From Candidatus Bathyarchaeota archaeon (lineage in GTDB: Archaea; Thermoproteota; Bathyarchaeia; Bathyarchaeales; Bathyarchaeaceae): a stretch of DNA of 16,529 nt. The notes under the pieces were generated by a model. That model saw only the letters and a program-made list of their open reading frames with translations, was not told the origin of the DNA and did no database searches. The position numbers and the translations under genes were made by a program. Numbering within the stretch: position 1 is the first letter of the stretch; the number at the start of each line of letters is the position of its first letter. The DNA lies in the NCBI GenBank assembly GCA_029883255.1, contig JAOUJL010000018.1:1-16529 (forward strand), written 5' to 3'. Positions 1-16,529 of the stretch are shown here, piece after piece.

Positions 1-24
1 GGTGAGGATAGATTCGTCAAGGCT

Positions 25-764: not shown

Positions 765-841
765 AGGGCGCCATCACTTTTCAAGTTAACGGTTCCAGAA
801 GGCATATGAGAAGGTTTCGGTTAATAATTTCATGATAAAGG

Positions 842-2197: not shown

Positions 2198-2237
2198 CCT
2201 GAGGAGCCGATAGTGTTATTTTTCCATTTTAAATATT

Positions 2238-2468
2238 ATGATGCGAGAGAAAGCGATGCCATATTTTACTCCTAAACAACGCTTCAAGATAGCTCTCGGA
2301 GGCTTCATGTCATTAATGGGATTCATAATCTTAGCCCTCATAGTTCTTGTAATCACAGAGACGATAGATACTGAAAACATTTTACAACCCGGATTATTGG
2401 TTGATTTCATAGTAGTTATAGGAGTTTTGGATGTTCTCGCAGGAATTCTGTTGCTTCGCTTGAAATAA
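2238..2468 (+). CDS. Small two-helix membrane protein, unknown
   Basis: The 76-residue product has a short polar N-terminus (MREKAMPYFTPKQRFK) and two predicted membrane helices: about residues 17-39 (ALGGFMSLMGFIILALIVLV) and 53-74 (LVDFIVVIGVLDVLAGILLL). It ends in a basic LRLK. No known family is recognised. The start is ATG at 2238, with another ATG directly after it; I see no convincing Shine-Dalgarno, and an AT-rich stretch (TTTTTCCATTTTAAATATT) precedes it. It lies 40 bases after nre on the same strand and converges with the minus-strand gene ending at 2483, only 14 bases away. Its last helix has the pattern G-x3-(V/I)-x-(A/S/G)-G-x-LL also seen in 2483-2845 and 7545-7781. Confidence 0.6.
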   Translation: MMREKAMPYFTPKQRFKIALGGFMSLMGFIILALIVLVITETIDTENILQPGLLVDFIVVIGVLDVLAGILLLRLK

Positions 2469-2482
2469 CCTCTTAAACTTAG

Positions 2483-2845
2483 TCACTCGCTTCCCATTAA
2501 AAGAAAGCCGCCAACAATGTTTATTATACCTACAAAGACCCACAATACGAAACCTAAATATGCCGCTTCGGGCGACATCGTCATCCAGCCCACCTGACCG
2601 GTTACTGTTACGTAGGCCAAAAGACACAGAAGCAGAAATCCAGCCGCTAATAATGAAGCACTGAAGTATGTTCCAACTTTACGTGAAATTTTGAGAACAC
2701 CGAACCTCTCCTCCTCCAAAGCTTTTTCCGTAGCCTTTTCAGCCTTTTTTTCAGGAGGAGTAACAGGTTTGGACGGGGCTCGTACCATGATCTCCTTTTT
2801 CTCTTTCTTCTTGGTCATGAAGAACGCCCACGAGATTGATTTCAC
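2483..2845 (-). CDS. Small membrane protein with charged Lys/Glu-rich N-terminus, unknown
   Basis: The product is 120 residues from GTG at 2845, or 111 from the in-frame ATG at 2818 that begins MTKKKEKKEIM. A highly charged, proline-containing head (KPVTPPEKKAEKATEKALEE) of about 50 residues comes first. Two membrane helices follow near residues 62-82 (SASLLAAGFLLLCLLAYVTV) and 95-117 (YLGFVLWVFVGIINIVGGFLLM). The layout suggests a cytoplasmic coiled or disordered head on a helical hairpin anchor. A possible TATA-like AATAAAG lies about 20 bases upstream of the GTG. The C-terminal helix shares the G-I-I-N-I-V-G-G-F-LL pattern with neighbouring small membrane proteins. I do not recognise the function. 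Confidence 0.6.
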   Translation of the reverse strand: MKSISWAFFMTKKKEKKEIMVRAPSKPVTPPEKKAEKATEKALEEERFGVLKISRKVGTYFSASLLAAGFLLLCLLAYVTVTGQVGWMTMSPEAAYLGFVLWVFVGIINIVGGFLLMGSE

Positions 2846-3027
2846 CTAAAAGTGTAAAGTCTTTATTGTTAAACTTTCCTATACGTTGAATACTTTAATT
2901 TTCCATCTGTTCCTTTACCAGCTTCGTATCTTTTGCCGTGTCTTTACATGGCTCGTTCTTCGTTCGGTATGTTTCGAGCTTTGCTTAATCTAGAAACTAT
3001 AGGTTTATATGGGAGCAATTTCGCAAG

Positions 3028-3036
3028 TTATAAATT
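3028..3036 (+). promoter_or_regulatory. TATA box for the coiled-coil gene
   Basis: TTATAAATT is centred about 29 bases upstream of the TTG start at 3061. Archaeal transcription usually starts about 25 bases after the TATA centre, so the message would be leaderless or nearly so, consistent with the lack of a strong Shine-Dalgarno. A second TATA-like TTTATAT lies at 3004-3010. Confidence 0.45.
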
Positions 3037-3060
3037 ACCCTTAGTTTTAAAATTATCGGA

Positions 3061-4710: not shown

Positions 4711-4771
4711 AACATCTGCTCAGAAAAGCTTCTCAATTGCAACTTCCAGATCTACCTTTTCTAGGTTTAAC

Positions 4772-4936
4772 GTGTTTGAGACAGCAACGTTGGTTTTGTT
4801 GGTAGGTAGTGGCATACTTATTCTTGGAGTGCTCACTAGCTACCTTTTGACTGAACAGGCTTGCTGGTTTTTTAGATCTTCTTCAGCACTTTTCTGCTCT
4901 CTAACAACTCTTGACGGCTTGGAGCTTCGCTTTTAA
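4772..4936 (+). pseudogene. Possible remnant of a one-helix membrane protein
   Basis: Within the 297-base gap between the coiled-coil gene and the 298-residue membrane gene, a GTG-started frame encodes 54 residues. It opens with a convincing membrane helix (FETATLVLLVGSGILILGVL) and then degrades into Ser/Leu-rich sequence without obvious structure. The frame is open further upstream to a TAA next to the end of the preceding gene but has no other good start, and no Shine-Dalgarno is visible. I read it as a possible decayed or truncated gene. The rest of the gap shows nothing I can name. Confidence 0.2.
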
Positions 4937-5007
4937 GTTCTTCTCCTTCACACTTTTGGGTAACATCTTGCGTCTGTCGCGCACACTTCTATTTCAACTC
5001 ATCATGT

Positions 5008-5904
5008 TCATAAGCACAGGTCAACCTTCAGATGAGTCAAGTATCCTATCAAACCGTATAATGGAACAGAAACAATCTCAGTTATGTCTCCAATTGAGAT
5101 TGGAAGATCCCCGAATGCAAAAAAGCTCAATGTAAAAAGAAAAATCAGGTATATTGCTAATGATTTGAAGTTATGGAAGTTTTCGGTTGTCTTCCATCTC
5201 AACCGTGTCCCCAGAAAAAAAGCCCCAATGAACAGTGGAGCAAACAGCAGAAGAGCATACTTCTTGTACCATGGCAAGTCTCCAGTTGTGTCTCGTGTAT
5301 CATGATAAGTCTTCCTTCTAAAGATGGAAGGCAAGTCTGGAAGGAAATTGCTGTAGAAGAAAATCAATATGCCCAAAAACATAGAGTCCAGAGCATTCTC
5401 TCGGAAGAAATAGAGATCCGCACAAACATAAAGGAGGCTTGCTGGTAAAATTATCCATTTGAACACTTTAATCATAAGGTCAACATGCTGTAAAGTTTCA
5501 CTCTTCATAGACCAAACGGCGAGTTTTGACCTAACCTTTCGATTTACGCTCTTGAAGTAGCGCAACACAGAGCCATAAAGGATGTCATACGTTAATCGCG
5601 ACAAAAAGCCATAAAACCCTTTCACTTCTTGATAGTTTAGCCTTGGCTTCAAATATGGGTAAACCTTTTCCCGAACAGAATACCCGATGAAGGGTATCCA
5701 CACAAGGAGCAAAATCTCAGTCATGGCAGTGACGTATAGTCCACCGTTCCAAGCGTAGTAAGGATTTGGAAGCTCCCCCTCTGACCCTTTGAACCATTCA
5801 CAGTATCTACGGTATTCCTGAAGGGTGTAGTAAAAGGTGATTCCCCAGATTATTGTGGCTATCAAAAGCACTGTAAAAGCCAATTTAAACTTAGATGTTT
5901 CCAT
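5008..5904 (-). CDS. Polytopic membrane protein with YdjM/DUF457-like C-terminal half
   Basis: The 298-residue protein has about seven hydrophobic segments: near residues 7-27, 56-76, 148-165, 172-188, 217-233, 246-265 and 278-291. In the C-terminal half three membrane-edge motifs occur in the order expected for YdjM/DUF457 'metal-dependent hydrolase-like' membrane proteins: P189-D190-L-P192, F-H244-N-x-K-S, and G-Y-x-x-H291-x3-D295. That assignment is inference, because the family's usual HRG-x-H is altered to FHN. The N-terminal half (to about 145) contains polar loops and basic stretches and is unfamiliar. The start is ATG at 5904, preceded by AGAGGA at a 5-6 base spacing, a good ribosome site. 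It is transcribed alone, away from the APC permease. Confidence 0.7.
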   Translation of the reverse strand: METSKFKLAFTVLLIATIIWGITFYYTLQEYRRYCEWFKGSEGELPNPYYAWNGGLYVTAMTEILLLVWIPFIGYSVREKVYPYLKPRLNYQEVKGFYGFLSRLTYDILYGSVLRYFKSVNRKVRSKLAVWSMKSETLQHVDLMIKVFKWIILPASLLYVCADLYFFRENALDSMFLGILIFFYSNFLPDLPSIFRRKTYHDTRDTTGDLPWYKKYALLLFAPLFIGAFFLGTRLRWKTTENFHNFKSLAIYLIFLFTLSFFAFGDLPISIGDITEIVSVPLYGLIGYLTHLKVDLCL

Positions 5905-6034
5905 TCTTGTCCTCTCGCGTGCGTCTTGTTCTATTTCTACTCTTCACTCAGGGCTGAGCGGTGACACCTTCCAAAGTATTTAACTCTGGCTTAAATTTAA
6001 CATTTTCATTTAAGCCACTTAACGCGTGCTCTTT

Positions 6035-7531
6035 TCAACCATGTGTAGTAGCGTTTAAGATGCCTGCTATGATGGAGATTGCACTGATAACGAGTATGAC
6101 ATAACCGGGCACATATGGAAAAATAGGTGATATGAAACCGGCTTCCGCTAAACAAGTAAGCAACGCTAGGGAAATGCCCATGCCTAAGACTGCTCCTCCC
6201 ACAGCGATCTGTAGACGATGACGTCCCATCATTCTGAGGTAATACGTCATTAGGACTATCGCCGTTAGTCCAACTCCAGATATCAGTGCACCTACGGCGT
6301 TGATGTCCCCAAGGAACGTGGGAAATACCAAAAGTGCAACGGACATGATGACCCCGGCGATGGGCGTGAAAGGGTACAATGGGGTCTTGAATGGTCTTTC
6401 CATATACGGCTTTTTCTCTCTAAGCTTTAAAAGGGAAAGATTAACCAAAGCAAAAACTATGAGCGATGCGAAGCTTGCTGCGTATCCGAGGAACTCTATG
6501 GCTTCAATTGCGCTCAAAAGCACTACGAAAAGTGAACCAGTGGTGATTGCAACGTAAGGAGTTCCGAAACGTCGATGAATCGAGAGCAAAGCTTTAGGCA
6601 GGTATCCATCTCTGCTCATTCCACGGGCGATGCTTGATTGAACCGTTAAGGATGTGCTTAGAGCGGATAAGCATGCCACCATCCCAGCAATCGCAAACAA
6701 GACTCCACCGGCATCACCCATGATTTGTTCAGCCGCAAAGTTGAGAAACGGTGCCATTGGACGAGTCTCTTCCAGTGGAACGACACCCGCAGCTACGTAA
6801 GCAATACTAACGTAGATAGGTATTATTAATAATGCCGACAAAAGTATGCCTTTAGGGACATTTCTCCCCGGGTATTTTAGGAGAGCAGCACCTGCTACAA
6901 GGGCTCTCATCCCGAAAAACATGGGAAACATGTAGACGGTAGCTGCAAAAACCCCGGACATACCTTCGGGCAGATGTTTTGGAAGAACTTCTAACGGAGT
7001 TAGTCCACGCAATATTCCGCTAGCAATGAGAATGGCGAATATTGCTATGAAAACGACAACTATTGTAGCTCCGAGTTTTTTCACTCCTTTAATGTCTGAT
7101 GCCGCGAGAACCAAGACCACTATTACAGCGATTAATGGCGTTTGAGTTGAAACAAAACTTTCAACAGTGGGCGCGACAACCGAAAAAAGATATGCGAGTT
7201 GCTGAGTGAAAACCACGGCGGCCAGTGCTGCTGCGAATACGCTGGCGAGCCATCTGAAACAGCCGGATATGAAGGCGATGAATCCGCCGTAAGCAGTCTT
7301 TATGTAAGTGTATTCACCGCCCACTTTAGGCATGGCTGCACCGAGTTCACAGTAGCTAAACATGGTTAGCAGATTTATCAGTCCGGCTAGCAAGAGAGCT
7401 AGTATTATGCTGGATCCAGCTAGATGGAAGTAGGCATAATCTAAAAGCACAAAAATTTCGAAGCCTATGGCACCGCTTAATCCCATTATTAATGCATCAC
7501 GCAATCCGAGTTCCCTTTTTGTTTTCAACAA
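6035..7531 (-). CDS. APC superfamily amino-acid permease
   Basis: The 498-residue product is a polytopic transporter with roughly 12-14 membrane helices, the usual APC size. The N-terminal family signature is clear: LGLRDALIMGLSGAIGFEIF (the glycine-rich unwound first helix) and then the loop SYCELGAAMPKVGGEYTYIK, typical of APC transporters. Further on, SIARGMSRDGYLPKALLSIH and RRFGTPYVAI give the conserved 'ARxxxxDGxLPxxxxxxxxxxxTP' segment. It probably imports or exchanges amino acids or related amines; the substrate cannot be read. Start choice: TTG at 7531 is preceded by GAGGGAG six bases upstream, whereas the nearby ATG at 7535 is in another frame. It follows the 78-residue membrane gene by 13 bases, so the two are probably co-transcribed. 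Confidence 0.9.
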   Translation of the reverse strand: MLKTKRELGLRDALIMGLSGAIGFEIFVLLDYAYFHLAGSSIILALLLAGLINLLTMFSYCELGAAMPKVGGEYTYIKTAYGGFIAFISGCFRWLASVFAAALAAVVFTQQLAYLFSVVAPTVESFVSTQTPLIAVIVVLVLAASDIKGVKKLGATIVVVFIAIFAILIASGILRGLTPLEVLPKHLPEGMSGVFAATVYMFPMFFGMRALVAGAALLKYPGRNVPKGILLSALLIIPIYVSIAYVAAGVVPLEETRPMAPFLNFAAEQIMGDAGGVLFAIAGMVACLSALSTSLTVQSSIARGMSRDGYLPKALLSIHRRFGTPYVAITTGSLFVVLLSAIEAIEFLGYAASFASLIVFALVNLSLLKLREKKPYMERPFKTPLYPFTPIAGVIMSVALLVFPTFLGDINAVGALISGVGLTAIVLMTYYLRMMGRHRLQIAVGGAVLGMGISLALLTCLAEAGFISPIFPYVPGYVILVISAISIIAGILNATTHG

Positions 7532-7544
7532 GCATAACTCCCTC

Positions 7545-7781
7545 TCAACGTGACTCTAGCCATTCCTGAACAAGGAGTAATCCGCTTATGATTGAGAAGA
7601 ACCCGAAAACGAGGAGAGTTAATAAATAAACGTAGCTGAATCTTGCCGCCGCGTTTAACCATGTTTGAACATCAAAAAAGTTGAAGTAAAGAAGACAAGC
7701 AAAGATGACTATTAACACAGCTATTATGCTTTGTACAATACCAACTATAACCGTAAGAGCTCTCCTATCTTCCATTAGCAA
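7545..7781 (-). CDS. Small two-helix membrane protein, leader gene of the APC permease operon
   Basis: The 78-residue product has two membrane helices, about residues 9-31 (LTVIVGIVQSIIAVLIVIFA) and 50-71 (YVYLLTLLVFGFFSIISGLL), and ends QEWLESR. The start is either TTG at 7781 or ATG two codons in, at 7775. An AT-rich TATA-like stretch (AATATTTATTTATTA, 7807-7821) lies about 30-40 bases upstream. The gene ends 13 bases before the permease start, and the permease Shine-Dalgarno falls in that gap, so an accessory role for the transporter is possible but not shown. The second helix has the same G-x3-I-x-S-G-x-LL pattern as the small proteins near 2.2-2.8 kb. Confidence 0.65.
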   Translation of the reverse strand: MLMEDRRALTVIVGIVQSIIAVLIVIFACLLYFNFFDVQTWLNAAARFSYVYLLTLLVFGFFSIISGLLLVQEWLESR

Positions 7782-7897
7782 ACGCCGACCAGACCCTTTT
7801 CTGTCAAGTAATAAATAAATATTGTTTTAGGTATTCACCTCAACAAATACACACCTAGTCTTCAGTAACATCAGAACGGGTTGTCAACTTTGTGATA

Positions 7898-7929
7898 GCG
7901 CGCGCGCGTTAAATATACGAAGTATCTTA
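7898..7929 (+). repeat. Alternating GC tract followed by AGTATCT (left flank of two-gene unit)
   Basis: Eleven bases of perfect GC alternation (7898-7908) sit in an otherwise AT-rich intergenic stretch. AGTATCTTA follows at 7921-7929, twelve bases after the tract. The same combination occurs in the same orientation at 10162-10184 and inverted at 10268-10286. Confidence 0.5.
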
Positions 7930-7966
7930 ATTATGCCAAAGACGTGTAGTCCAAAATGAAATTCGC

Positions 7967-8800
7967 GTGTCAATACTAAAATGGTGGCAAAGTATGGAAA
8001 GAAAAGATTATTTTTACCCTGATATTGATGACAAAATAACAGCGTCTTTAATGAAAGAAAGAGAGCCTTTCGAAGGGTATTGGGAGAAAAGTGAAAAAAA
8101 AGTTTTAAATTTGATCAAGGAGTCTATTCAAGAACACGTCAAGAAAACTGCGGACTCTTGGTTTCTTGACGCAGGCTGCGGAACAGGCAGATTGTTGCCT
8201 AAATTTGAAAGACACTTTAACCATATTCTTGCAATCGATCCCGATCCCACTCAAATTAAAAAAGCGAAGAGTCTTGTCAAAAAAGGTGGATTTGCACACA
8301 AAGTTGTGTTTCAAGTGACTTCGATAGAGAAACTTGATTGGAGAAAAGAAAGTATCGATGTCATTCTGTGCAGTCATATACTCCAGCATGTACAAACAGA
8401 TTCTGTTCCCTTGATATTGCGGAAATTCGAGGAACTTACAAAAAAAGAAGGTCTACTTTTCATAATGGCAACTCATTCAAGAGAGAAATGTGACTATTAT
8501 GTTAAAGAATACTTGGAAAATTCTAAAGTAGTTGAAGAAAGAATTGAAAAGGAGGAATTCAATTCTCTTATCTTCAATGAAAAGAACATTCTTCCACTTC
8601 GTTTTTTTTCACGGAAGAGCATTATAAAAGAATTGGAGAACTCGGGTTTTGTCTTACTAGATTTTAGATCTTTCCATGTGCTAGGTAAAGCGTCATTCCT
8701 AGACAAGATAATTGATAGAGACCGCCTAGTGAACTCTGTAGATTTCCTGAAGACAAGACTAGGTAGAGACATTCTCGTCACTAGTAGAAAAACTAGTTAA
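7967..8800 (+). CDS. Class I SAM-dependent methyltransferase
   Basis: The 277-residue protein carries a Rossmann-fold methyltransferase core. Motif I is FLDAGCGTGRL (D68-A-G-C-G-T-G74), an acidic residue ends the second strand (AIDPDP, D91), and motif IV-like DVILCSHILQHV (131-142) follows. The core resembles the UbiE/Methyltransf_11 type. Residues 175-277 form a helical, charged C-terminal part that probably sets substrate choice; no target (DNA, RNA, lipid or small molecule) can be deduced, and there is no DNA-methylase NPPY/DPPY motif. The start is GTG at 7967; in-frame ATG at 7994 (MERKDYFYPD) is an equally plausible start, and no Shine-Dalgarno decides it. The next gene starts 50 bases downstream on the same strand. 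GC-alternating repeats flank the pair. Confidence 0.8.
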   Translation: MSILKWWQSMERKDYFYPDIDDKITASLMKEREPFEGYWEKSEKKVLNLIKESIQEHVKKTADSWFLDAGCGTGRLLPKFERHFNHILAIDPDPTQIKKAKSLVKKGGFAHKVVFQVTSIEKLDWRKESIDVILCSHILQHVQTDSVPLILRKFEELTKKEGLLFIMATHSREKCDYYVKEYLENSKVVEERIEKEEFNSLIFNEKNILPLRFFSRKSIIKELENSGFVLLDFRSFHVLGKASFLDKIIDRDRLVNSVDFLKTRLGRDILVTSRKTS

Positions 8801-8850
8801 ATAGAAGAAAATTCAATTCTGTTAGGAGTAGGTCAACTGAGGCATTATCG

Positions 8851-10155
8851 TTGGAAACTCCACCAGAATTATCGACAGAGAGTCTCCTAGAGTTTAATGA
8901 TGTTCGTTTGGCTTTTCTGAGCGTTTTTCCACTGACTGTCAATGAAAGCATTACTAGAGAGCAAGCAATTGAGATATTGAAAGAAAAAGGCATTAACACT
9001 GAATGGAAGATTCCATATTCAAAAGACTTCAAGGTAGCGGAAGAATTTCTCCTGCCGAGGAGAATTACTGATCAATATTTCCGTTTGAAGTTAAATGATT
9101 TTGAATTATCCTTTGTAAAAATGTTGCAAGAAAAACCAATTGACATCAGACTCTTAGCTAGTGTATTCTTGACAATCTACCCGAAGGTTGGTGTGGGTGT
9201 TCTGCTATTTAGTGTAAGATTAAACCATGGTAGTGTTGATGACTTAGTCTTTCTCCAACAAAGTCTGTATGGTAGAACCAAACTCGGCATAGTTCTTTCT
9301 CCTCCATTCAAAGAAGTACAAAAAAGCAATATCTCATTGGAAGAAGTCGCACAGAAGCATATTAATTTGATTTTATCTGCCTTTAGCATTCCTATACAGA
9401 ATCCTAGAATTTTACGGGCTAGGTGTGTGGAAATTCGTAGCTTGTCTGACTTTAAACTCAGAGATCCTACGGAATTATTTGAAAAATTTCCCAACCAAAC
9501 ATATGGATTGCTTGTTGCTGATGAAGGTTGGAGGTTTGTTCCACCAGAAACAGCAAAGGGAAGAATGCAACTTAAGTGGAGAACCAGAAACTTTCTGAGC
9601 GTACTTGCTTTGGCTCAATGTGTAATCTTTGTGAATTTTCAAGAGAAGGAGACATATACACAGTACCAGGCATCACAAAAGCAAATAAGAGAGAAATACG
9701 GACACGAAGTCGAGGAATACTTCACTTACTCTCCTGAAATTGCTGGACTTAATCACGGACCATTATTTATGTTAGAAAATGCTTCTGTTCAGCGTTTCAT
9801 AATAGAACAAACTGAAGAGCAGATCATAGAGACGCCACTGAAAAGCATTAAGGAAATCTTGATTTCAAGAGAGAAGCTTTTAGATGTCCTTTCAAGGTTG
9901 TCATGCATAAAGATACCTGAAATAGGTCTGTTGGGACAAAATGTTCAGGATGCAATGAGAGTCTCAAAAGGCATCGAAGAGTCAGAGAAAAAACTGGAAG
10001 AAGTTGAGCGCACACTTTTGATAAGATATAACCAAAGAATAAACCTCGGAATAGTCATCTTAACTGTCGTAAGCCTAGGAGTTGGAATTCTAAGCATACT
10101 AATAGATATGGGTTTATTGAATCTTTTATTGAATATTATTGCAAACAGTAGTTGA
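8851..10155 (+). CDS. Unknown protein with C-terminal membrane anchor
   Basis: The 434-residue protein has a large soluble part (1-395) and a C-terminal hydrophobic region that can hold one or two membrane helices (INLGIVILTVVSLGVGILSI near 397-416, then LLNLLLNIIA). A charged helix (EESEKKLEEVERTLLIRYNQ, about 373-392) precedes the membrane part, an arrangement reminiscent of CorA/RMD1-like proteins, although the CorA GMN motif is absent. Other stretches, such as NFLSVLALAQCVIFVNFQEK and PEIAGLNHGPLFMLENASVQ, look conserved but I do not recognise them. TTG at 8851 is preceded by GAGG about nine bases upstream. It probably shares a transcript with the methyltransferase 50 bases upstream. Six bases after its stop a GC-alternating tract begins. 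Confidence 0.7.
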   Translation: METPPELSTESLLEFNDVRLAFLSVFPLTVNESITREQAIEILKEKGINTEWKIPYSKDFKVAEEFLLPRRITDQYFRLKLNDFELSFVKMLQEKPIDIRLLASVFLTIYPKVGVGVLLFSVRLNHGSVDDLVFLQQSLYGRTKLGIVLSPPFKEVQKSNISLEEVAQKHINLILSAFSIPIQNPRILRARCVEIRSLSDFKLRDPTELFEKFPNQTYGLLVADEGWRFVPPETAKGRMQLKWRTRNFLSVLALAQCVIFVNFQEKETYTQYQASQKQIREKYGHEVEEYFTYSPEIAGLNHGPLFMLENASVQRFIIEQTEEQIIETPLKSIKEILISREKLLDVLSRLSCIKIPEIGLLGQNVQDAMRVSKGIEESEKKLEEVERTLLIRYNQRINLGIVILTVVSLGVGILSILIDMGLLNLLLNIIANSS

Positions 10156-10161
10156 TGAAAG

Positions 10162-10286
10162 GCGCGCGCTTGTACAGTATCTAACTTACACGAAACAAGT
10201 AGGTTTTAACCTAAAAAACTGTGTCTAATTTGTGTCTACATATACTGACTGATACCCTACCTAACCCTAGATACTGTCGCGCGCGC
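10162..10286. repeat. Inverted repeat of GC tract plus ACAGTATCTA, arms about 20 bases, 84-base centre
   Basis: The left arm is GCGCGCGC (10162-10169), TTGT, ACAGTATCTA (10174-10183). The right arm is TAGATACTGT (10268-10277) followed by CGCGCGCGC (10278-10286). The 10-base cores are perfect complements; the only difference is the 4-base versus 1-base linker to the GC tract. The centre holds a small palindrome TAGGTTTTAACCTA (10200-10213) and a direct repeat TGTGTCTA (10220-10227, 10231-10238). The element lies between two converging genes and its right arm overlaps the tail of the broken NERD gene. It could be a bidirectional terminator, a protein-binding site or the edge of a mobile unit. 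Confidence 0.6.
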
Positions 10287-11010
10287 TAAATTTTGACCCC
10301 CCACATTCGCGTGCACGTTTAGAATTTCTTTGCTCATTAACTCAATTTCTTGAGCGGATAGACGTCTTGTTTCTTGGGTTATGTAATTGGTCAATTCATC
10401 AATCTTTAGAACTTCAACGTTGGATGGGGTTTTGCGCTTAATCTAATTCTACTTTTTTGTTAGCGAAAACTACAACCCCTTGAACCCAAGGAAGTTTTGA
10501 TACAAAAATCCCAGAAGCCTTAATGGCCTTATAGACTCTCGAAGTGTTGACGCGTGCTTGTGTAAAAGGGTTTTGACCTATACCTGTCCAACTATCTTCA
10601 TAGCAAATAATCTTGCCACTGTGGTTTTTGGTTTCCAATACAAATATTCCTGTTGGTCCCAGAACAATATGGTCAATGTTGCTTCTTTTACCCGCAACAA
10701 GCTGAACATCATTGATGAGAAAATAGTCGTCGCTCAAAGTTGAAGAAAGAACTTTGGTAACTTGTTTTTCTCCTTCAAAGCCTCGCTGGTAGCCACGATG
10801 CAGTCGGTAGAAAACTAGCACCCCAATTAGCGGAAATATCATTACTAACACACGAGCGGTGTCGTACCGCCCTAGGTCAATATAAAGAGGCAAAATTGGG
10901 TCAGTGGTAAGAAATATGACAACAAAGACAAATAGACACAAGACCCCCAAAATTAAGTACTGGTACGCTTTTCTTTTCAGGTAAGTTCCTGACAACTTCA
11001 AAATCTTCAA
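10257..11010 (-). pseudogene. Membrane-anchored NERD-domain (nuclease-related) protein, frameshifted
   Basis: From TTG at 11010 the intact frame gives 190 residues ending at TAA 10440-10438. Two membrane helices (about 18-36 and 52-69) are followed by a NERD domain: GFEGEKQV (G80-E81), NIDHIVLGPTGIFVLETKNH (D113, E126-x-K128, a PD-(D/E)XK-like site) and QNPFTQARVN. The domain is cut soon after WVQGVVVFANKKVELD. One base further on, the next frame continues the family sequence as RKTPSNVEVLKIDELTNYIT and runs 59 residues to TAG at 10259-10257. A single extra base near 10437-10441 (reading GAT AAG instead of GATTAAG) would restore about 250 residues. This is either a real disabling mutation or a sequencing error. 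NERD proteins are thought to act on nucleic acids and occur in defence contexts. Confidence 0.8.
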
Positions 11011-11094
11011 GTTTACAGCGACCTTCTTATATCACGCACTGCATCATTTCATATTATATTATACCATACTGCAGCTCTTCATGTCTATTAGGTC

Positions 11095-11104
11095 TTTATA
11101 TAAG
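11095..11104 (+). promoter_or_regulatory. TATA box before the GNAT remnant
   Basis: TTTATATAAG lies about 24 bases before the GTG at 11123 and about 36 before the ATG at 11135. This is good archaeal TATA spacing and suggests the acetyltransferase gene once had a working promoter and a very short leader. Confidence 0.5.
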
Positions 11105-11122
11105 GGACGTGTCTAGAGTTTT

Positions 11123-11256
11123 GTGGTTTCCAAGATGATTGAAGGTAAGAAAGTTCGTTTGCGTAGTTTTGAGCTTTCAGATTTAGATGAGATCATGAAG
11201 CATTGGAATAATATGGAGCTTAGCGCACGCGTAGACATCCTTCTCCCGTTTCTCAA
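11123..11256 (+). pseudogene. Truncated GNAT acetyltransferase (N-terminal fragment)
   Basis: From ATG at 11135 (or GTG at 11123) the protein starts MIEGKKVRLRSFELSDLDEI and continues MKHWNNMELS. This is the classic opening of RimJ/RimL-type GNAT N-acetyltransferases: first strand 'xxxRLRxxxxxDxxxIxxWxNxxEL'. Family members run about 160-190 residues and carry an acetyl-CoA loop (R/Q-x-x-G-x-G/A). Here similarity stops after about 30-40 residues. The frame stays open to 11512, but only by reading the complement of a better-looking minus-strand gene (11257-11466). The acetyl-CoA-binding half is missing, so the protein cannot work as a GNAT enzyme. I infer a deletion or recombination joint between about 11225 and 11256. 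Confidence 0.7.
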
Positions 11257-11466
11257 TCACGTTTCCTCGCTCGTTGGGTTCACGATATATGACAAATACT
11301 TGCCGTCTTCTTGCTTGCGTGTTGTTAGGTACAACCTCTTGAATCTGCCACGTCTTTGGTTACGTTTGAGAGCCGTTCTTATCGTGGATGGAGAACCTTC
11401 TTCTTGCGTAAGTACCAACGCTTTCCCGAGTGGAATGCTCGCGAAAATTTGCGCGCGCACGACCAT
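11257..11466 (-). CDS. Small basic protein, possibly DNA-binding, unknown
   Basis: From ATG at 11466 the frame encodes 69 residues; TTG at 11508 would give 83. The sequence is well balanced and looks like a real domain: FASIPLGKALVLTQEEGSPS, TIRTALKRNQRRGRFKRLYL, then TTRKQEDGKYLSYIVNP. A helix with S-T-I-R-T-A-L-K-R followed by two basic strands resembles a small winged-helix or recognition-helix arrangement, with the strand pair as the wing; this is inference from pattern only. It lies antisense to, and more convincing than, the downstream reading of the GNAT remnant. The first codons contain a GC-alternating tract (11451-11458). No neighbour suggests a role. Confidence 0.45.
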   Translation of the reverse strand: MVVRAQIFASIPLGKALVLTQEEGSPSTIRTALKRNQRRGRFKRLYLTTRKQEDGKYLSYIVNPTSEET

Positions 11467-11600
11467 TAAGAAGTTGTTTAACTCGAATAAAACTTTAACT
11501 TTCTGCAAATAAAAAAGTCAAATGGCACATGAAATAGCGTCCATAAATGTTATGCAGTAATCATGGTAATCAAGAAAGCTGCAATAACTACATGCGCTAG

Positions 11601-12413
11601 TTAATCTTCCCCACATATTTCCTCGGGGTTTATAGAGATCAAACCACTTATACTAGTTATGTACCTACCTGATCCTGTAAGTTCATATTCATTTTCTCTA
11701 CCTAATTTGATCTTATTGATATATCCTGCATTTTCAAGTTTGTGCAAAACATTTCTATTCAATCTCATTATTATGGAAGTTTTTTCAGATCTGCCAATAC
11801 CAAAATAATCTACATTAAACCCATTAACTTTTGATTTAGACAAAAATTGGATAATATCAATTGTCCTCATTTTATTCCTCTTAGAAATTTCTACTAATAC
11901 CTTTAATCCTAATTCGTTTGGCATTAAGATCTTAAAGTTCTCAAGGAAATCAACGACTCTATTATCACATATTGTAATCCCGTGCTCTTCTCTTTCTAAT
12001 TCAGTTGTTGAGTACCTGTCAGCCTTGACATAATATACCTTGACGTCATGAAACATACCTGCCAATGTGGCTCCCACGGATGTAAGCCTGCCACCAGAAG
12101 ACATATTAATATAAACATTATTACCCCGAGCTTTTTCTTTGCATATTAGATTACTAATTTTTCTCATTACATCCAACAGATCAATGAGCTTTGTGTCTAT
12201 TACGATGACTTCAATATTTAGTAGTTTAAAAAAATCTTTCACTTTTTCAGCTTTTTCCATATGTTCTTCCGTCATATGCGGAGGAGCGTATCCTGATGAT
12301 TGAGTTGTCAGTAAATAGACGCGATTGGGTCTGAATCCTTCTCTTCCTTGGAAGGGAATTACAGCACGATCAAACTCAATGCCTAAGGGAATTATGTGGA
12401 CGATTTCTTCCAA
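11601..12413 (-). CDS. CARF-like sensor / winged-helix regulator (DUF6293, HFX_2341-like)
   Basis: The N-terminus (EEIVHIIPLGIEFDRAVIPF, then NRVYLLTT) matches the HFX_2341/DUF6293 type of archaeal regulators related to Csa3. It has a Rossmann-like CARF-type domain, and INMSSGGRLTSVGATLAGMF holds the S/T-G-G loop that in CARF proteins contacts cyclic nucleotides or similar ligands (about residues 103-119). The C-terminal half (about 165-255) reads as a winged helix: LGLKVLVEISKRNKMRTIDI, IMRLNRNVLHKLENAGYI, KLGRENEYELTGSGR. I chose TTG at 12413 because AGGTG lies six bases upstream; GTG at 12422 would overlap that site. It is divergent from the ubiquitin-like operon, with TAACG repeats in between, and is a candidate regulator of it. 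The ligand is unknown. Confidence 0.75.
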   Translation of the reverse strand: MEEIVHIIPLGIEFDRAVIPFQGREGFRPNRVYLLTTQSSGYAPPHMTEEHMEKAEKVKDFFKLLNIEVIVIDTKLIDLLDVMRKISNLICKEKARGNNVYINMSSGGRLTSVGATLAGMFHDVKVYYVKADRYSTTELEREEHGITICDNRVVDFLENFKILMPNELGLKVLVEISKRNKMRTIDIIQFLSKSKVNGFNVDYFGIGRSEKTSIIMRLNRNVLHKLENAGYINKIKLGRENEYELTGSGRYITSISGLISINPEEICGED

Positions 12414-12423
12414 GTTTAACACC

Positions 12424-12458
12424 TAACGTGATAACGATGTTAACGATTATAACGTGAT
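12424..12458. promoter_or_regulatory. Tandem TAACG iterons, putative operator
   Basis: Four near-identical units start at 12424, 12432, 12441 and 12450: TAACGTGAT, TAACGATGT, TAACGATTA, TAACGTGAT. The spacing is 8, 9 and 9 bases. They fill the gap between the divergent CARF-like regulator and the membrane/ubiquitin-like operon. A TATA-like ACTTAATAG (12462-12470) follows on the operon side. A related TTACGGTGAT lies at 12471-12480. Tandem sites in a shared control region fit binding by the adjacent winged-helix protein; that link is inference. Confidence 0.55.
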
Positions 12459-12506
12459 CATACTTAATAGTTACGGTGATATGCATATTAGGGAGGTATA
12501 TCGAAA

Positions 12507-12806
12507 ATGAATAAGGATGAGCACGTCCTTGGTGCGCTCATCTCTAATTTCGTCTATTGGATGATTCCCCTTCACAATGGCATCGCCGCACTATTGATCA
12601 GCAGCATCTTTGCACTTTGGGGTGGATTAGCTCCAGATGCGCTGGAACCTCCAACTTGGCGGGGCCACAGAGGAGGTTGGCATTATTTTGCTGGACCTAT
12701 TAGTATCCTTCCCGCAATATTCTTCGTCAACTCGGACTTGATACTGTTCGTCATTGGCGCTTTTTGTGTTGGTTATTTTTCACATTTTATTTTGGACATA
12801 CTATAG
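12507..12806 (+). CDS. Small YdjM/DUF457-like membrane protein, first gene of the ubiquitin-like operon
   Basis: The 99-residue protein shows YdjM/DUF457 motifs in order: H6-x-x-x-G-A near the N-terminus, G-L-A-P43-D44 after the first helices, H54-R-G-G-W-H59 in the loop, and G-Y-F-S-H93-x3-D97 at the end. In larger relatives these His and Asp residues are taken as metal ligands of a membrane-embedded hydrolase-like fold. Here the chain is short and stops at the final motif, so activity is uncertain. ATG at 12507 is preceded by a strong GGGAGGT nine bases upstream. Its TAG stop directly abuts the Shine-Dalgarno (GGGGGTGAT) of the ubiquitin-like gene. This spacing indicates one transcript, though a functional link to the conjugation genes is not proven. 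Confidence 0.75.
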   Translation: MNKDEHVLGALISNFVYWMIPLHNGIAALLISSIFALWGGLAPDALEPPTWRGHRGGWHYFAGPISILPAIFFVNSDLILFVIGAFCVGYFSHFILDIL

Positions 12807-12817
12807 GGGGTGATAAA

Positions 12818-13066
12818 TTGAGTGAGGAGAAACAAATGGAAGGGAAAGGCAAGTTCTATACGCTCTTCATCGACGACGTGGAATACCGTGTGGATAAACA
12901 AGAGTTAACTGGTAAAGAGATAATGGATTTGGGCAGTATACCTTACGATGTAGGTTTATTGCTAATTCTTGAGGACGGTACGCAAGTACAAGTTGGTGAA
13001 GACGAAGTAATAGAGCTGAAGCCCGGTAGGCGATTCAAGAAAGCCCCAAGGTTCAAACGAGGTTAA
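12818..13066 (+). CDS. Ubiquitin-like protein, single multiubiquitin-type domain ending in Gly
   Basis: The 82-residue protein has one beta-grasp domain of the multiubiquitin (Multi_ubiq) type. Strands FYTLFIDD and VEYRVDKQEL form a hairpin, the helix lies around TGKEIMDLGS, then LLLILEDGTQVQVGEDEVIE, and the tail is LKPGRRFKKAPRFKRG. The chain ends exactly at Gly82, so the C-terminus is ready for adenylation without proteolytic trimming; many bacterial relatives have several tandem domains or a tail. TTG at 12818 was chosen because GGGGGTGAT lies 3-6 bases upstream; an ATG further upstream at 12764 overlaps the previous gene. The E2 gene starts 2 bases after its stop. It would be the modifier attached to targets by the downstream E1 and E2. 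Confidence 0.85.
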   Translation: MSEEKQMEGKGKFYTLFIDDVEYRVDKQELTGKEIMDLGSIPYDVGLLLILEDGTQVQVGEDEVIELKPGRRFKKAPRFKRG

Positions 13067-13068
13067 GA

Positions 13069-13461
13069 ATGTTGCAGAGAAAATTAGCTGAAATTGAGCT
13101 ACTTGAGAAGAAATATGGCAAAATCGAACATGAGCCAAGCTTAGAGTGGATTATCTTTAAAGAATTCAAACTACCTAAGGGCTGGAATCGTGCCACAACT
13201 GAAATCTTAATTATGATCCCTCCAGGTTACCCAGTAACTCCGCCAGACAATTTCTACGTGCCAGTTGGGTTTAGACTTGAATCTGGCGCCATGCCTCAAA
13301 GCTATAGTGAAAACCAAAATCATTTGGGGCGGCAGTGGGGTGTTTTTTCAGTTCACATTCAAAAAGAGACCTGGTCTCCTTCTACCGACTTACTGAGTGG
13401 TGACAATTTACTCACTTACATGATGGTTGTTGTTGAAAAGAGATTAGAGGAGGCCAATTAA
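13069..13461 (+). CDS. E2/UBC-fold protein (prokaryotic E2 family E-like) with Ser at the catalytic Cys position
   Basis: The 130-residue protein follows the UBC order. An N-terminal helix (LQRKLAEIELLEKKYG) and strands are followed by MIPPGYPVTPPDNFYVP, the E2 'P-x-x-Y-P-x-x-P-P' turn. Then comes NENQ/NH near 82-85 and G91-V-F-S94-V-H-I97, which lines up with G-x-I-C-L-D-I of classical E2s, followed by W102-S-P104 and a C-terminal helix. The protein contains no cysteine at all; Ser94 occupies the active-site position. Oxyester-forming E2s have been reported in diverged bacterial ubiquitin-like pathways, so Ser94 may be the acceptor. ATG at 13069 uses the GAGGT at the end of the upstream gene. 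The E1 gene begins at the very next base after its stop. Confidence 0.8.
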   Translation: MLQRKLAEIELLEKKYGKIEHEPSLEWIIFKEFKLPKGWNRATTEILIMIPPGYPVTPPDNFYVPVGFRLESGAMPQSYSENQNHLGRQWGVFSVHIQKETWSPSTDLLSGDNLLTYMMVVVEKRLEEAN

Positions 13462-14874
13462 TTGAATAAGATTGTGATTCCAAAATCAATATGGGAAAGA
13501 GCTAAAGTCTATCTGCAAAATGACAATTGTGAAAGTTTCTTATTCTTTTTCTGTGGAATTAATAAGACTTTGAAAAGTGTAACCTTCTTAGTAAGGGATT
13601 TCATCAGAGTACAAGAAAAAGATATTGCAGTATCTGATGATTATTCTACACAGGTTGAATTGAATGCTTTATTAGATATCACCAATAGGGCTCATCAAGA
13701 AAATGTGGCAATTGTGGAAGCTCATAATCATCCTTTTTCAAGAGAGCATGTTACTTTTTCATACACTGATCATGAGGGTTACAAGGAGTTTGTGCCTTAC
13801 ATTTTAGATTATTTGAAAAAGCCATATGGAGCTACTGTATGGAGCAGCGAATCTGCAGATGGAATGATGTGGACACAATCGTTTACTGGCTGTGAAGAAA
13901 TTCATCAGATTAGAATACTTGGTAAGAATATCACAAATTATTCGACGTCATCCAATCGAGAAGCATCAAAGGCAAAATCAAATTCACTGAATCGGGCCCA
14001 TAGGCAAGTATTAGCACTGGGTGAATCAGGACAAGAGCAAATTGGTCGTAAATCTGTAGCGCTAATAGGATTAGGTGGTATAGGCTCACATGTAGCACAA
14101 CAACTAACCTATCTTGGCGTACGTGATTTCGTATTAGTTGACTTTGATATTATTCAGACTGAAAACCTGAACAGAATCGTTGGAGCTTATCCACGCGACA
14201 TTGGCAAATCGAAAGTGGAAATTGCAGCTCGAATGATCAAATCAATAGCCGGAAATGAGAAATCACGAGTAGTCCGGTTAGAAAAGAATCTTCGACACGA
14301 AGATGTGTTGAATCATATCAAAAGCTGTGATGTAATCTTTGGTTGTGTCGATAATGACGGTGCGAGACTGATCCTAAACGAACTAGCTTTAGCATATATG
14401 GTTCCATATTTTGATTCAGCCTTTGGCATACATGCGGAAAACAGAGTTATTGAAGAGGCGGGCGGTAGAGTTATTCTTGTTTTGCCTGATGAACCATGCC
14501 TGCTGTGCTGCAAAGATATCGACATATCAGAAGCTTCATATTTCCTAGCATCTCGCAAAGAACAAGCATTTCGAGAAGAGAGAGGTTATGTATCCGGCGC
14601 CCATGTTCCTTCACCTTCCATTATCTCTCTTGATGGGATAATTGCTTCAATTGCGGTAACTGAATTTACAGCACTAATCACAGGTTTTCGAGAAGCTCTA
14701 CAATATTCATCATACGATTTTTTAAAGCAACAACTAAACAAAAGGATTGTGAAGAAGAACACGAATTGCATCCATTGCAATTTGGCCGGTTTTGGTGATG
14801 ACTCAGACATAATGAGATATGCAATTCAGAGCAATGTTGAAAACAAAATAGCGGTGAACTCTTTTGCCGAATAA
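13462..14874 (+). CDS. JAB/JAMM peptidase - ThiF-type E1 adenylyltransferase fusion
   Basis: In this 470-residue fusion, residues 1-150 are a JAB/JAMM isopeptidase with the zinc set E24 (CESFLFFFCG), H88-N-H90, S100-x-x-D103. Residues about 180-440 are an E1/ThiF/MoeB adenylation domain: G203-x-G-G-I-G-S-H (ATP loop), V-D227-F-D229, ENLNR, D-x-G-K249, and G-C-V-D297-N. A structural zinc site is formed by C346-x2-C349 and C436-x2-C439. There is no Cys between 351 and 435, where E1-type enzymes usually carry a catalytic Cys; SPSIISLDG lies there. One chain thus both activates the ubiquitin-like protein and can remove it. TTG at 13462 directly follows the E2 stop, with AGAGGAGG eight bases upstream inside the E2 gene. 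Confidence 0.9.
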   Translation: MNKIVIPKSIWERAKVYLQNDNCESFLFFFCGINKTLKSVTFLVRDFIRVQEKDIAVSDDYSTQVELNALLDITNRAHQENVAIVEAHNHPFSREHVTFSYTDHEGYKEFVPYILDYLKKPYGATVWSSESADGMMWTQSFTGCEEIHQIRILGKNITNYSTSSNREASKAKSNSLNRAHRQVLALGESGQEQIGRKSVALIGLGGIGSHVAQQLTYLGVRDFVLVDFDIIQTENLNRIVGAYPRDIGKSKVEIAARMIKSIAGNEKSRVVRLEKNLRHEDVLNHIKSCDVIFGCVDNDGARLILNELALAYMVPYFDSAFGIHAENRVIEEAGGRVILVLPDEPCLLCCKDIDISEASYFLASRKEQAFREERGYVSGAHVPSPSIISLDGIIASIAVTEFTALITGFREALQYSSYDFLKQQLNKRIVKKNTNCIHCNLAGFGDDSDIMRYAIQSNVENKIAVNSFAE

Positions 14875-15229
14875 ACGTGTGCATTTGAAATTTGACGAAT
14901 ATCTGAAAGACCATGGCATTATTCGCAGTTATACCTACGCTGATAGTGTCCATGATCGAATGGATAGAGGCATAATAGTTTTGGGTTCAGAGCATAGGGA
15001 TATAGACTTCTATCATTCAGAAAAGGGAATAAGAGAATGGCTAAGAGGATTTTCTCATCTTGCCTACCAAGAAACCTTAACGGATTACCTCAGAGTTGCT
15101 TTAGGTCATTTAGCATTAGACGGCATGGCATCTCGCTATGAATTTGAAAATGAATATGGGTTAATGAAATCCGCCTATCGAAGTTTCATACAACAAGGAT
15201 ACCATAGGAAATATTTCCTAGAACGATGA
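14864..15229 (+). CDS. Unknown 121-residue His/Asp-rich protein, last gene of the ubiquitin-like operon
   Basis: The gene overlaps the end of the JAB-E1 gene by 11 bases. Its TTG start at 14864 has GGTGA six bases upstream within that gene, so translational coupling is likely. The protein is helical and soluble. Possible metal or catalytic residues are H30-D31-x-x-D34, G41-S-E-H44-R45, H51, and H82-x3-D86 in ALGHLALDGM; the last resembles the H-x3-D of metal-binding helices. I do not recognise the family. Its position suggests a dedicated partner of the conjugation system: an effector, an adaptor or a preferred substrate. No E3-like RING or other ligase motif is visible. Confidence 0.65.
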   Translation: MPNKRVHLKFDEYLKDHGIIRSYTYADSVHDRMDRGIIVLGSEHRDIDFYHSEKGIREWLRGFSHLAYQETLTDYLRVALGHLALDGMASRYEFENEYGLMKSAYRSFIQQGYHRKYFLER

Positions 15230-15321
15230 AAAATGAGCAAACTTCTATGTAGGCTTCAAGTGAGAAATGTGGAAAAGTTAAAGCAAAACCGAAGATAGTG
15301 AAACTCTAGCAGATGAGGTAA

Positions 15322-15492
15322 CTACTCAAGTTTTCTTTTGCACATGGGACATTTTATTGGGTATTCAAACTTACTCATGCTGATTCCACAGAGAAAGCAG
15401 ACACAGATCTTGCAGTGAGGGCAATACCAGTTTGCCCCAGTAATCCTTTTACCACACATTGAGCATGATTTAATCAGGCATTCATTGGACAT
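15322..15492 (-). CDS. 56-residue double zinc-ribbon protein
   Basis: Translation of the minus strand from ATG at 15492 to TAG at 15324-15322 gives 56 residues with ten cysteines: C5, C10-x2-C13, C24-x2-C27, C30, C32-x2-C35 and C48-x2-C51. The spacing makes two zinc ribbons, the first from C10/C13 with C24/C27 and the second from C32/C35 with C48/C51; segments include SCSMCGKRITGANWYCPHC and KCPMCKRKL. A GGAAGAAGA stretch precedes the start. Such small double zinc ribbons usually bind nucleic acid or protein partners; no specific role can be given. The coding pattern is very unlikely to arise by chance, which supports a real gene despite its size. Confidence 0.7.
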   Translation of the reverse strand: MSNECLIKSCSMCGKRITGANWYCPHCKICVCFLCGISMSKFEYPIKCPMCKRKLE

Positions 15493-15549
15493 ATTCTTCT
15501 TCCAACTGAGTCAACATAAGCGTTGGTCTCTTCTCGTAGTGTTTGCATT

Positions 15550-15693
15550 CTATTTTTTTTTATGAATGAGATAATACTCGACAAACTGTTCATTAGAGAT
15601 TTTGCATTTCCACTTTTCCTCAAATAGCCAATCAGACTTAGTTGCAGGTTTCCAAGACTTGATCAAGTTGCAACAGTTGAAACATCTAACCAT
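15550..15693 (-). CDS. 47-residue Cys-containing protein with strong ribosome site
   Basis: ATG at 15693 has a perfect AAGGAGG 7-8 bases upstream, the best Shine-Dalgarno in this part of the window. The product starts MVRCFNCCNLIKSWKPATKS and continues with DWLFEEKWKCKIS, ending YYLIHKKK. C4-x2-C7-C8 and C30 could form part of a zinc knuckle, with a fourth ligand from C8 or a His. The family is not recognised. It lies 57 bases upstream of the double zinc-ribbon gene on the same strand, and the two are probably one transcript. Confidence 0.6.
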   Translation of the reverse strand: MVRCFNCCNLIKSWKPATKSDWLFEEKWKCKISNEQFVEYYLIHKKK

Positions 15694-15913
15694 TGATAAT
15701 CCTCCTTCACAGGGGAGCCAGGAGAAATAAAGAAAAATCTCCCGCTCTCCACCCCACAGTGGACAACAACTCCAGTGTCTTTCGGGGATAGAAGACTAAA
15801 GCTGTAATCTTTTAAGACCCTCGATGAAACAGACTTGCCGATAGTTCAGACTGTAGAGTGAAAGTAAATCTATAACAGCATGCATGAAACAAAAGAATTG
15901 ATAAGAATCGGAA
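15694..15913. other. Gap with a possible minus-strand terminator-like hairpin, no gene seen
   Basis: No convincing frame lies here; the longest minus-strand ATG frame gives about 29 residues without features. On the minus strand GGAGA, a T-rich loop (TTTTTCTTTATT) and TCTCC form a 5-bp hairpin at about 15717-15741, just upstream of the 47-residue gene at 15693. It could be a weak terminator or part of that gene's leader. Confidence 0.25.
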
Positions 15914-16057
15914 TTAAAGTTTTTTCATCCAAGCTTTCTTCTTGCCACATCTTAGACAACGCTTCTCCCAGTCCCTTACATTAGAACCCTGATAGTGAAT
16001 GAATCTAGGTTTACTCCACTTATGAATGCCAATCTTGCATAGCCATCTTTTAGACAA
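15914..16057 (-). CDS. 47-residue zinc-knuckle protein, phage-type
   Basis: From TTG at 16057 the sequence is MSKRWLCKIGIHKWSKPRFI, then RDWEKRCLRCGKKKAWMKKL. The ligands C7-x4-H12 and C34-x2-C37 form the 'LCxxxxHxW...RxCxRCG' pattern of tiny prophage and archaeal mobile-element proteins, similar in style to DUF1660. The frame stays open upstream to a TTG at 16123, but that part is antisense to the helicase remnant and contains a GC-rich joint (GCGCACGCGC). I therefore prefer the shorter start, which has AAGG about 11 bases upstream. Together with the genes at 15550-15693 and 15322-15492 it forms a run of three tiny Cys-rich proteins on the minus strand. Confidence 0.55.
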   Translation of the reverse strand: MSKRWLCKIGIHKWSKPRFIHYQGSNVRDWEKRCLRCGKKKAWMKKL

Positions 16058-16086
16058 AAGGATCCAAACCTTAGGTACAGCGCACG

Positions 16087-16407
16087 CGCTCAACCTCAAG
16101 ACATTTCGATACAGAGCGCCCAACGATTTTCATTTACGATAGTTACGAGGGTGGAATCGGAATATCCGAGAAGCTCTACGAGTTGGTCGAGAAACTGTTT
16201 GCAACGACACTGCGATTAATAAGGGACTGCGAATGCGAAGAGGTTTGCCCATCCTGCATATACTCACCAAAATGCGGAAATGAGAACGATCCTTTAGACA
16301 AAGAAGCTGCAATCATCATATTGGTCGGACTCCAAGAAATCATGAAAACAAGAAAAGCCCGAAAAGGTGAGCCAGATGTTACCGAATTGCGCACAAAATT
16401 ACTTTGA
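16087..16407 (+). pseudogene. C-terminal remnant of an MrfA/YprA-type DEAD-box helicase (DUF1998)
   Basis: The plus frame reads RPTIFIYDSYEGGIGISEKL, then LRLIRDCECEEVCPSCIYSP, KCGNENDPLDKEAAIIIL and ends at TGA 16405-16407. This is the hallmark of the DUF1998 C-terminal domain of MrfA/YprA helicases: 'FiyDsypGGiGlaek' followed by the four-Cys cluster C-x-C...C-P-x-C...C-G. The full enzyme is roughly 750-1,000 residues and repairs mitomycin-damaged DNA in bacteria. Here the frame closes upstream at a TAG (16072-16074), and the zinc-knuckle gene on the other strand begins just beyond, so only about the last 100 residues remain. TTG at 16183 could restart translation, but a functional protein is unlikely. 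The joint lies near 16075-16095 in a GC-rich stretch. Confidence 0.85.
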
Positions 16408-16445
16408 TGTGAATGGTGTTGAGAAATGGCGCGCGTACTTTTGCT

Positions 16446-16529
16446 TTATGTTTCAGGAAGCTTTATGATTACTTTGCCGTTCGGTAGATTTGCGACGAAC
16501 TCCCATCCTTGTTCTAAGTAGCTTTCAAC
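16446..16529 (-). CDS. C-terminal tail of a minus-strand gene leaving the window
   Basis: The minus strand from the right edge encodes VESYLEQGWEFVANLPNGKV, then IIKLPET and TAA (16448-16446). The 'LIExGWEFVxxLPNGKxIxK' pattern resembles the tail of some archaeal tyrosine recombinases and related proteins (helix, then a strand pair); only 27 residues are visible, so the family is a guess. It converges with the helicase remnant, with a GC-alternating tract (16429-16435) between the two stops. Confidence 0.55.
   Translation of the reverse strand, partial: VESYLEQGWEFVANLPNGKVIIKLPET

Follow-up and report, generated by a model that had tools for sequence, protein, structure and literature searches.

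A Bub-type ubiquitin-like conjugation operon in a Bathyarchaeota archaeon, probably under a divergent CARF-wHTH regulator

The Bub pathway (Ye et al., 2026; Gong et al., 2025, as cited in PMC13373217 and PMC12687455) is encoded in bacterial operons that are often led by inducible regulators, either CapW or CapH+CapP (219/544) or CapK+CapS (59/544), according to the part of PMC13373217 available. As of 2010, an E2-like protein had yet to be detected in archaea, and a Jab-E1 fusion was present in a methanogen (PMC2948915, in part). Nothing in the portions of the literature searched, to which Ye 2026 and Gong 2025 do not belong, links Bub to CARF or to archaea; the portion of PMC13373217 covered mentions archaea in a reference only and CARF nowhere. 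Here we describe an operon for ubiquitin-like protein (Ubl) conjugation of the Bub type in a Candidatus Bathyarchaeota archaeon (assembly GCA_029883255.1, contig JAOUJL010000018.1, positions 1 to 16,529; this whole stretch is called the window), which probably stands under a divergent CARF-wHTH regulator.

The operon comprises five open reading frames (ORFs) on the + strand; successive genes are separated by 11, 2 and 0 bases, and the last two overlap by 11. A preliminary description of this DNA had listed these five genes correctly, and had missed the linked CARF-wHTH gene, which sits 84 bp upstream in divergent orientation. The features of the locus, with protein lengths in amino acids (aa), are:

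11601..12422, − strand: CARF-wHTH regulator (HFX_2341_N + DUF6293_C), divergent to the operon, from Pfam and PADLOC
12424..12453, + strand: operator-like TAAC array, four TAAC, containing TTAAC-N5-TAAC at 12440-12453
12507..12806, + strand: 99-aa membrane protein, YdjM-like, placed in the operon by spacing alone
12818..13066, + strand: single-domain Ubl, BubA-like, 82 aa from a TTG start inside the ORF 12764-13066; Gly82 codon at 13061-13063
13069..13461, + strand: Cys-less E2-fold protein, BubB-like, from Pfam and structure matches
13348..13356, + strand: S94-V-H96 of the E2, candidate active site from its invariance in aligned homologues
13462..14874, + strand: JAB(JAMM)-E1 fusion, BubCD-like, from the ThiF and BubCD 9ea4 matches
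13723..13770, + strand: JAMM core H88-x-H90 ... S100-x2-D103, from motif alignment
14068..14088, + strand: E1 nucleotide motif GLGGIGS, residues 203-209, from motif reading
14864..15229, + strand: 121-aa protein, predicted all-helical, overlapping JAB-E1 by 11 bases; unproven as a partner

The three central genes very likely represent a Bub set, as they encode a Multi_ubiq-group Ubl, a Cys-less E2 of the BubB kind and a JAB domain fused to an E1, in the order Ubl-E2-JAB/E1. The Ubl matches PF14452 (Multi_ubiq) with 28.2 bits (cut-off 24.5) and, read from the TTG at 12818, ends at Gly82 without a tail. The E2 matches PF14462 (Prok-E2_E) with 67.6 bits (cut-off 25), and the E1 part of JAB-E1 matches PF00899 (ThiF) with 131.7 bits (cut-off 28.1). 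No Pfam family reaches its cut-off in the JAB half; its JAMM residues H-x-H and S-x2-D align in all six JAB-E1 proteins compared (that of locus L010 lacks the Pro), and the pattern was found in 8/8 archaeal homologues. BubB and BubCD are by a wide margin the nearest solved structures to the E2 and JAB-E1 in the PDB, the latter matching BubCD (9ea4) with an E-value of 2.5e-23 across residues 193-411. The preliminary assignments of a single-domain multiubiquitin-type Ubl, an E2-fold protein and a JAMM-E1 fusion, in an archaeal host and with kinship to Bub, are borne out.

The window E1 carries the motifs GLGGIGS, VDFDIIQTENLNR and GKSK. Residues C295, C346, C349 and C436 of JAB-E1 are kept in all six aligned proteins and C439 in five of them. 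C346, C349, C436 and C439 look like a zinc site, whose first Cys pair (CxxC) is absent from BubCD in the alignment. C350 is common to the window and the Holophagales protein only, and the next window Cys is C436.

Homologues in the same Ubl-E2-JAB-E1 order could be identified at four bacterial loci, from Nitrospirae (L007), Omnitrophota (L008), Holophagales (L009, where the Ubl ORF was seen in one of two locus comparisons only) and Actinomycetota (L010), so that a chance arrangement is unlikely for the core three genes. The same records speak against the lineage-specific form that had been proposed for this gene set. The window Ubl shares 76% identity across 72 aa with a Ubl from the Nitrospirae locus. 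That locus has two Ubl genes (L007 5076-5999), one after an extra N-terminal region, and both end in R-G. Immediately upstream of the Actinomycetota operon, one gene encodes an M78 (IrrE) peptidase (54.4 bits) and another gives a weak HTH match (18.5 bits, cut-off 27), a pair that resembles the CapH+CapP regulators of bacterial Bub in the part of PMC13373217 covered. On a Bradyrhizobium plasmid, genes annotated as multiubiquitin, E2/UBC and ThiF occur close to a DUF6527 gene.

Among archaea, the E2 profile matched in 1/250 genomes of the class, 3/398 of the phylum, 8/151 of the family of genome G275 (f29) and 1/38 of the order of G083, the samples overlapping. There was no match in 90 genomes from the family of G001, the closest genome in our collection, and the window E2 was not found in G001 itself. 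The matches represent 11 distinct archaeal places besides the window: G083, G275, G317, G457, G574 (two, on contigs C5 and C26), G584, G595, G629, G634 and G667. An E1-like gene follows the E2 at nine of these, with a full-length JAB-E1 homologue at eight; the E1 of G457 has only 252 aa. The G629 place is cut by the contig end, and that of G584, which has no partner genes at all, is probably spurious. Ubl genes were found by blastp at five places (G083, G574:C5, G595, G634, G667) and by eye in the reading frames at three (G275, G574:C26, G629), and the short genes at the Ubl position in G317 and G457 gave no match. JAB-E1-like genes (28.2% and 27.3% identity) also occur on haloarchaeal Natribaculum plasmids. 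Two genes upstream of the one in N. luteum have weak Prok-E2_E matches (18.1 and 17.0 bits, cut-off 25), and this locus is a possible diverged archaeal relative. On the N. luteum megaplasmid the JAB-E1-like and weak Prok-E2_E genes adjoin MoxR and vWA genes (L058 5689-8749).

The divergent gene of the window encodes an HFX_2341-like CARF-wHTH regulator, with both PF19810 (103.3 bits, cut-off 30) and PF22665 (55.6 bits, cut-off 27) above their cut-offs and a match to PADLOC CARF3 of 275.9 bits. It is not a Csa3 (TIGR01884, 27.1 bits against a cut-off of 60.2). A divergent CARF gene also lies upstream at five of the 11 other archaeal E2 places (G083, G574:C26, G629, G634, G667), identified by the same two Pfam families in G083 and by blastp in the other four, and these five proteins are 27-30% identical to the window CARF. 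CARF control of the Bub operon is likely from this arrangement.

At four of the five CARF-bearing places the operon is followed by a gene for a TIR protein. Homologues of the TIR protein of G083 are the next gene at five of the 11 places, namely G083 itself, G574:C26, G595, G634 and G667 (an N-terminal piece), and the TIR domain was above its Pfam cut-off in both proteins tested, G083 and G634 (30 against 28 bits). In G083 the CARF, TIR, Ubl and E2 proteins all exceed their Pfam cut-offs. A phylogeny of 13 JAB-E1 proteins, excluding those of G457 and the haloarchaea, unites the five of the TIR kind in a single clade (support 100/96) and places those of the window, G275 and G574:C5 with the bacterial ones (support 89/92), the inner branching being unsettled. 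The layout divergent CARF-Ubl-E2-JAB-E1-TIR is seen at L011 5362-9026 (G083), L031 2020-5619 (G574), L033 32-3239 (G667, TIR short) and L034 6870-10508 (G634). The Ubls of these CARF-TIR-type operons end in Y-G, followed in G083 by a five-residue tail. Second TIR-like proteins stand beside TIR-type operons at L034 10576-11502 (TIR_2, 58.9 bits) and L031 191-967 (ThsB model, 36.2 bits).

The 84-bp gap between the CARF gene and the operon contains TAAC at 12424, 12432, 12441 and 12450, with steps of 8, 9 and 9. A chain of this length was reached in none of 5000 first-order simulated gaps and is the longest on either strand of the window. The pattern TTAA(C/T)-N5-TAAC or its complement has a single match in the window, inside this gap, and is also found in the CARF-Bub gaps of G574:C26, G629, G634 and G667, i.e., in four of the five others; per gap it was reached by 9 to 26 of 2000 simulations. 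The 13.2-kb locus of a Bub-less CARF in G141, which was not used in forming the pattern, carries one site immediately upstream of CARF and a second in the gap behind it, and the TAAC chains of its two gaps were reached by 46 and 226 of 5000 simulations. No site was found at eight other CARF loci of family f29. Altogether, 333,988 bases of non-redundant loci contain 13 sites, four in CARF-Bub gaps, two at the G141 CARF and seven elsewhere. From this distribution the array seems to belong with this CARF group, and its position fits operon control.

We propose that the CARF protein would occupy the TAAC array and be switched by a nucleotide-like ligand, as expected from its protein class. With the operon on, the E1 half of JAB-E1 would adenylate Gly82 of the Ubl, which would need no maturation. 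The Cys-less E2 would then accept the Ubl on the invariant Ser94, with His96 assisting, or position the Ubl adenylate (Ubl-AMP), and pass the Ubl to targets, from which the JAMM half would take it off again. The membrane and 121-aa proteins would be accessories that are local and exchangeable, a role that the TIR protein may have in the sister operons. We are reasonably confident of this explanation as a whole. A bolder reading, put forward tentatively, is that an archaeal Bub branch is wired to a nucleotide alarm, in which CARF-wHTH on the TAAC array switches on conjugation and the swappable next gene (TIR, small membrane protein or 121-aa helical protein) is the effector or target. The Cas10 palm was above its cut-off in 0/9 genomes other than the window's own, so that no type III CRISPR source of ligand is seen, a point against the proposed explanation; on the alarm reading the ligand would have a different origin, perhaps in the TIR proteins.

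A somewhat doubtful alternative keeps the same Bub operon and makes the E2 a non-catalytic E2/RWD scaffold, with target amines attacking Ubl-AMP directly and no E2-bound intermediate. This E2 group was indeed regarded as likely inactive and RWD-like for lack of Cys (Iyer, 2006; PMC1779556, in part). The window E2 has no Cys residue. Two archaeal E2s, those of G457 (L-S-F-Y) and G317 (L-C-H-Q), also lack S-x-H. However, F93, S94, H96 and W102 are invariant in 36/36 aligned rows and in 22/22 rows of a broader set, S-x-H is kept in nine of 11 archaeal E2s (window included, G584 left out), and BubB has W-S-R-H at this position; a mere scaffold need not keep these residues. A serine-ester chemistry has been attributed to Bub. 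Like the window E2, 43 of 61 E2 homologues have no Cys, and among the 18 that do, no position (in own numbering) is common to more than five; with the Cys pattern of JAB-E1, this makes a thioester route unlikely. Ubl transfer would then run either by a Ser94 ester or straight from Ubl-AMP, a choice that is inferential, and Ser94 chemistry is plausible.

That the CARF gene is an unrelated neighbour, and the Bub operon constitutive or otherwise regulated, we consider unlikely, although several observations weigh towards it and against CARF control through the array. This CARF family occurs without Bub, matches being present in 71/151 genomes of the f29 family, mostly one each. The window CARF is closer to the Bub-less CARF of G141 (41%) than to the Bub-side CARFs (27-30%), and no CARF adjoins the two archaeal operons that share the window's subtype, in G275, whose CARF is elsewhere on the same contig, and in G574:C5, which has just 547 bp upstream. 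As to the array, the operator pattern is absent from the 32-bp gap of G083, the TAAC chain in the other gaps does not exceed two (where it is two, 69 to 226 of 5000 simulations reach it), and the site of G667 lies inside the called CARF ORF, ahead of an inner Met that aligns with other CARF starts. The pattern and its steps were chosen by eye in those same gaps and the gap edges were placed manually (that of G667 lying 48 bases inside the called CARF ORF), and for this reason the simulation figures flatter the pattern. Against a chance neighbour stand the repeat array in the gap, the divergent CARF at five of the 11 other places, and the rarity of the window CARF, which has a match in only two of 60 relatives of G001. 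Since CARF occurs in 71 of the 151 f29 genomes, mostly once, its four divergent appearances among the nine E2 places there look non-random by estimate rather than by computed test. A sulfur-carrier pathway (ThiS/MoaD-like cofactor or tRNA thiolation) in place of conjugation is highly improbable, for although the E1 part matches ThiF/MoeB models, all 25 listed of 28 such matches are far under the NCBIfam cut-offs, no rhodanese or cofactor gene is among the five, an E2 and a JAMM are present, and the best PDB match is BubCD.

The two remaining operon genes behave differently from the core. The 99-aa membrane protein has just weak Zn_dep_PLPC/YdjM matches in Pfam; nine clusters of related proteins of 99-102 aa exist, its own counted, and the gene is therefore probably not broken. 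The 121-aa protein has no family match in Pfam (none at E 1) or in the other profile libraries scanned, and its predicted structure of six helices gave no clear fold match. Its relatives form 93 protein clusters, one of them named Candidatus Bathyarchaeia, and L14, H30, G81 and H82 are invariant across 79 rows. The family is present in 4/250 genomes of the class, and the identical four are among the 90 of the G001 family in which no E2 was found. Near the 121-aa genes of four other archaeal genomes there was no E2 or JAB-E1; one 36-aa Ubl match (E 0.002) at L014 is to a protein that is AbrB-like by eye.

Neither protein had a tblastn match at E 0.01 in 15 loci, i.e., the four bacterial ones and the 11 archaeal E2 places, where the G629 contig ends before the stretch behind JAB-E1 and several others are short. 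The complete five-gene operon of the preliminary description does not hold up for this reason: the Ubl and E2 folds could be placed as it expected, and co-occurrence is conserved among three genes without extending to all five. In the window, the 11-base overlap points to co-translation of the 121-aa protein with JAB-E1; as a Bub partner elsewhere it is unproven. Genes that are membrane-like by eye follow both other window-subtype archaeal operons, at L019 6710-7351 and L030 2572-4085 and have no blastp homology to the 99-aa protein.

The system may serve in defence or a stress response, and a defence role is plausible. Six hand-picked genes near the sister operons all had PADLOC matches: G083 gave a PDC-S41/Nhi/AbiO-like match, G595 PDC-S01 and an AriA/PtuA-like ATPase, G634 two TIR proteins and G574 a ThsB-like TIR protein. 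The defence context in the window itself, of which nine proteins were scanned with PADLOC, is thin: a weak ZorA match (18.1 bits, 3061-4710), a NERD-domain protein with weak PglW likeness (10438-11010, − strand, 26.2 bits) and an MZB (MrfA Zn-binding) fragment at 16129-16407 (51.8 bits), which is the short in-frame end piece of a YprA/MrfA-type helicase gene. An archaeal Nre gene, according to Pfam, and the Bathyarchaeia name among the 121-aa relatives agree with an archaeon from this class. G001 matches window positions 1-1576 with 100% identity up to its own contig end, its other matches being short (72-100%), and it probably represents the same species or one very close to it, with the remainder of the window missing from its assembly.

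Compared with known systems, Bil (BilABCD) shares the complete set of Ubl, E1, E2 and JAB, and differs in its two-domain Ubl, catalytic-Cys E2 and separate JAB and E1 genes (PMC11354881, in part); the Cys-less E2 and fused JAB of the window exclude it. The type II cyclic-oligonucleotide-based antiphage signalling system (CBASS) protein Cap2, an E1-E2 fusion, does not fit either, since E2 and E1 are separate genes here. SAMP/UbaA and the Caldiarchaeum-type cassettes share an archaeal Ubl and E1 with the window; the Caldiarchaeum-type system is a cascade of E1, E2 and RING proteins according to PMC5654768 (in part). Caldiarchaeum-type cassettes have a catalytic-Cys E2 and a separate JAMM, and on these features they are set apart from the window, with its Cys-less E2 and fused JAMM. 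SAMP works without an E2 (PMC11354881), which the window has, and the UbaA model scores only 64.7 bits against a cut-off of 450. The distinction from both archaeal systems drawn earlier is thus upheld.

Type 6e of Iyer (2006; PMC1779556) resembles the window in its poly-Ubl-group Ubl, inactive E2/RWD-like protein and JAB-E1 fusion. In the part of that paper covered, its Table 1 row names no hosts but bacteria, most of its Ubls contain two or three domains where the window has one, and it includes a metal-binding protein Y. Strict type 6e was rejected, as no gene for a C-x3-C-x(35-38)-H-x2-C protein is present and the 121-aa protein has 0 Cys and no Pfam match, and the window is therefore filed as a Bub core. 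Bub itself (Citrobacter BubB, BubCD) agrees in Ubl, Cys-less E2, JAB-E1 and gene order. The window differs from bacterial Bub in being archaeal, in having CARF-wHTH where CapW, CapH+CapP or CapK+CapS stand, in having no DUF6527 gene among its five and in an E1 that keeps the CxxC pair. We regard it as an archaeal Bub variant, and archaeal Bub with CARF and TIR is new relative to the portions of the literature covered. In these, Bub is described from bacteria; the window shows its full core in archaea, in addition to the SAMP and Caldiarchaeum-type systems. The CARF link, if true, would join nucleotide signalling with ubiquitin-like conjugation, two branches of prokaryotic immunity usually studied apart, and a Cys-less E2 with invariant Ser and His bears on ubiquitin-like transfer without thioesters.

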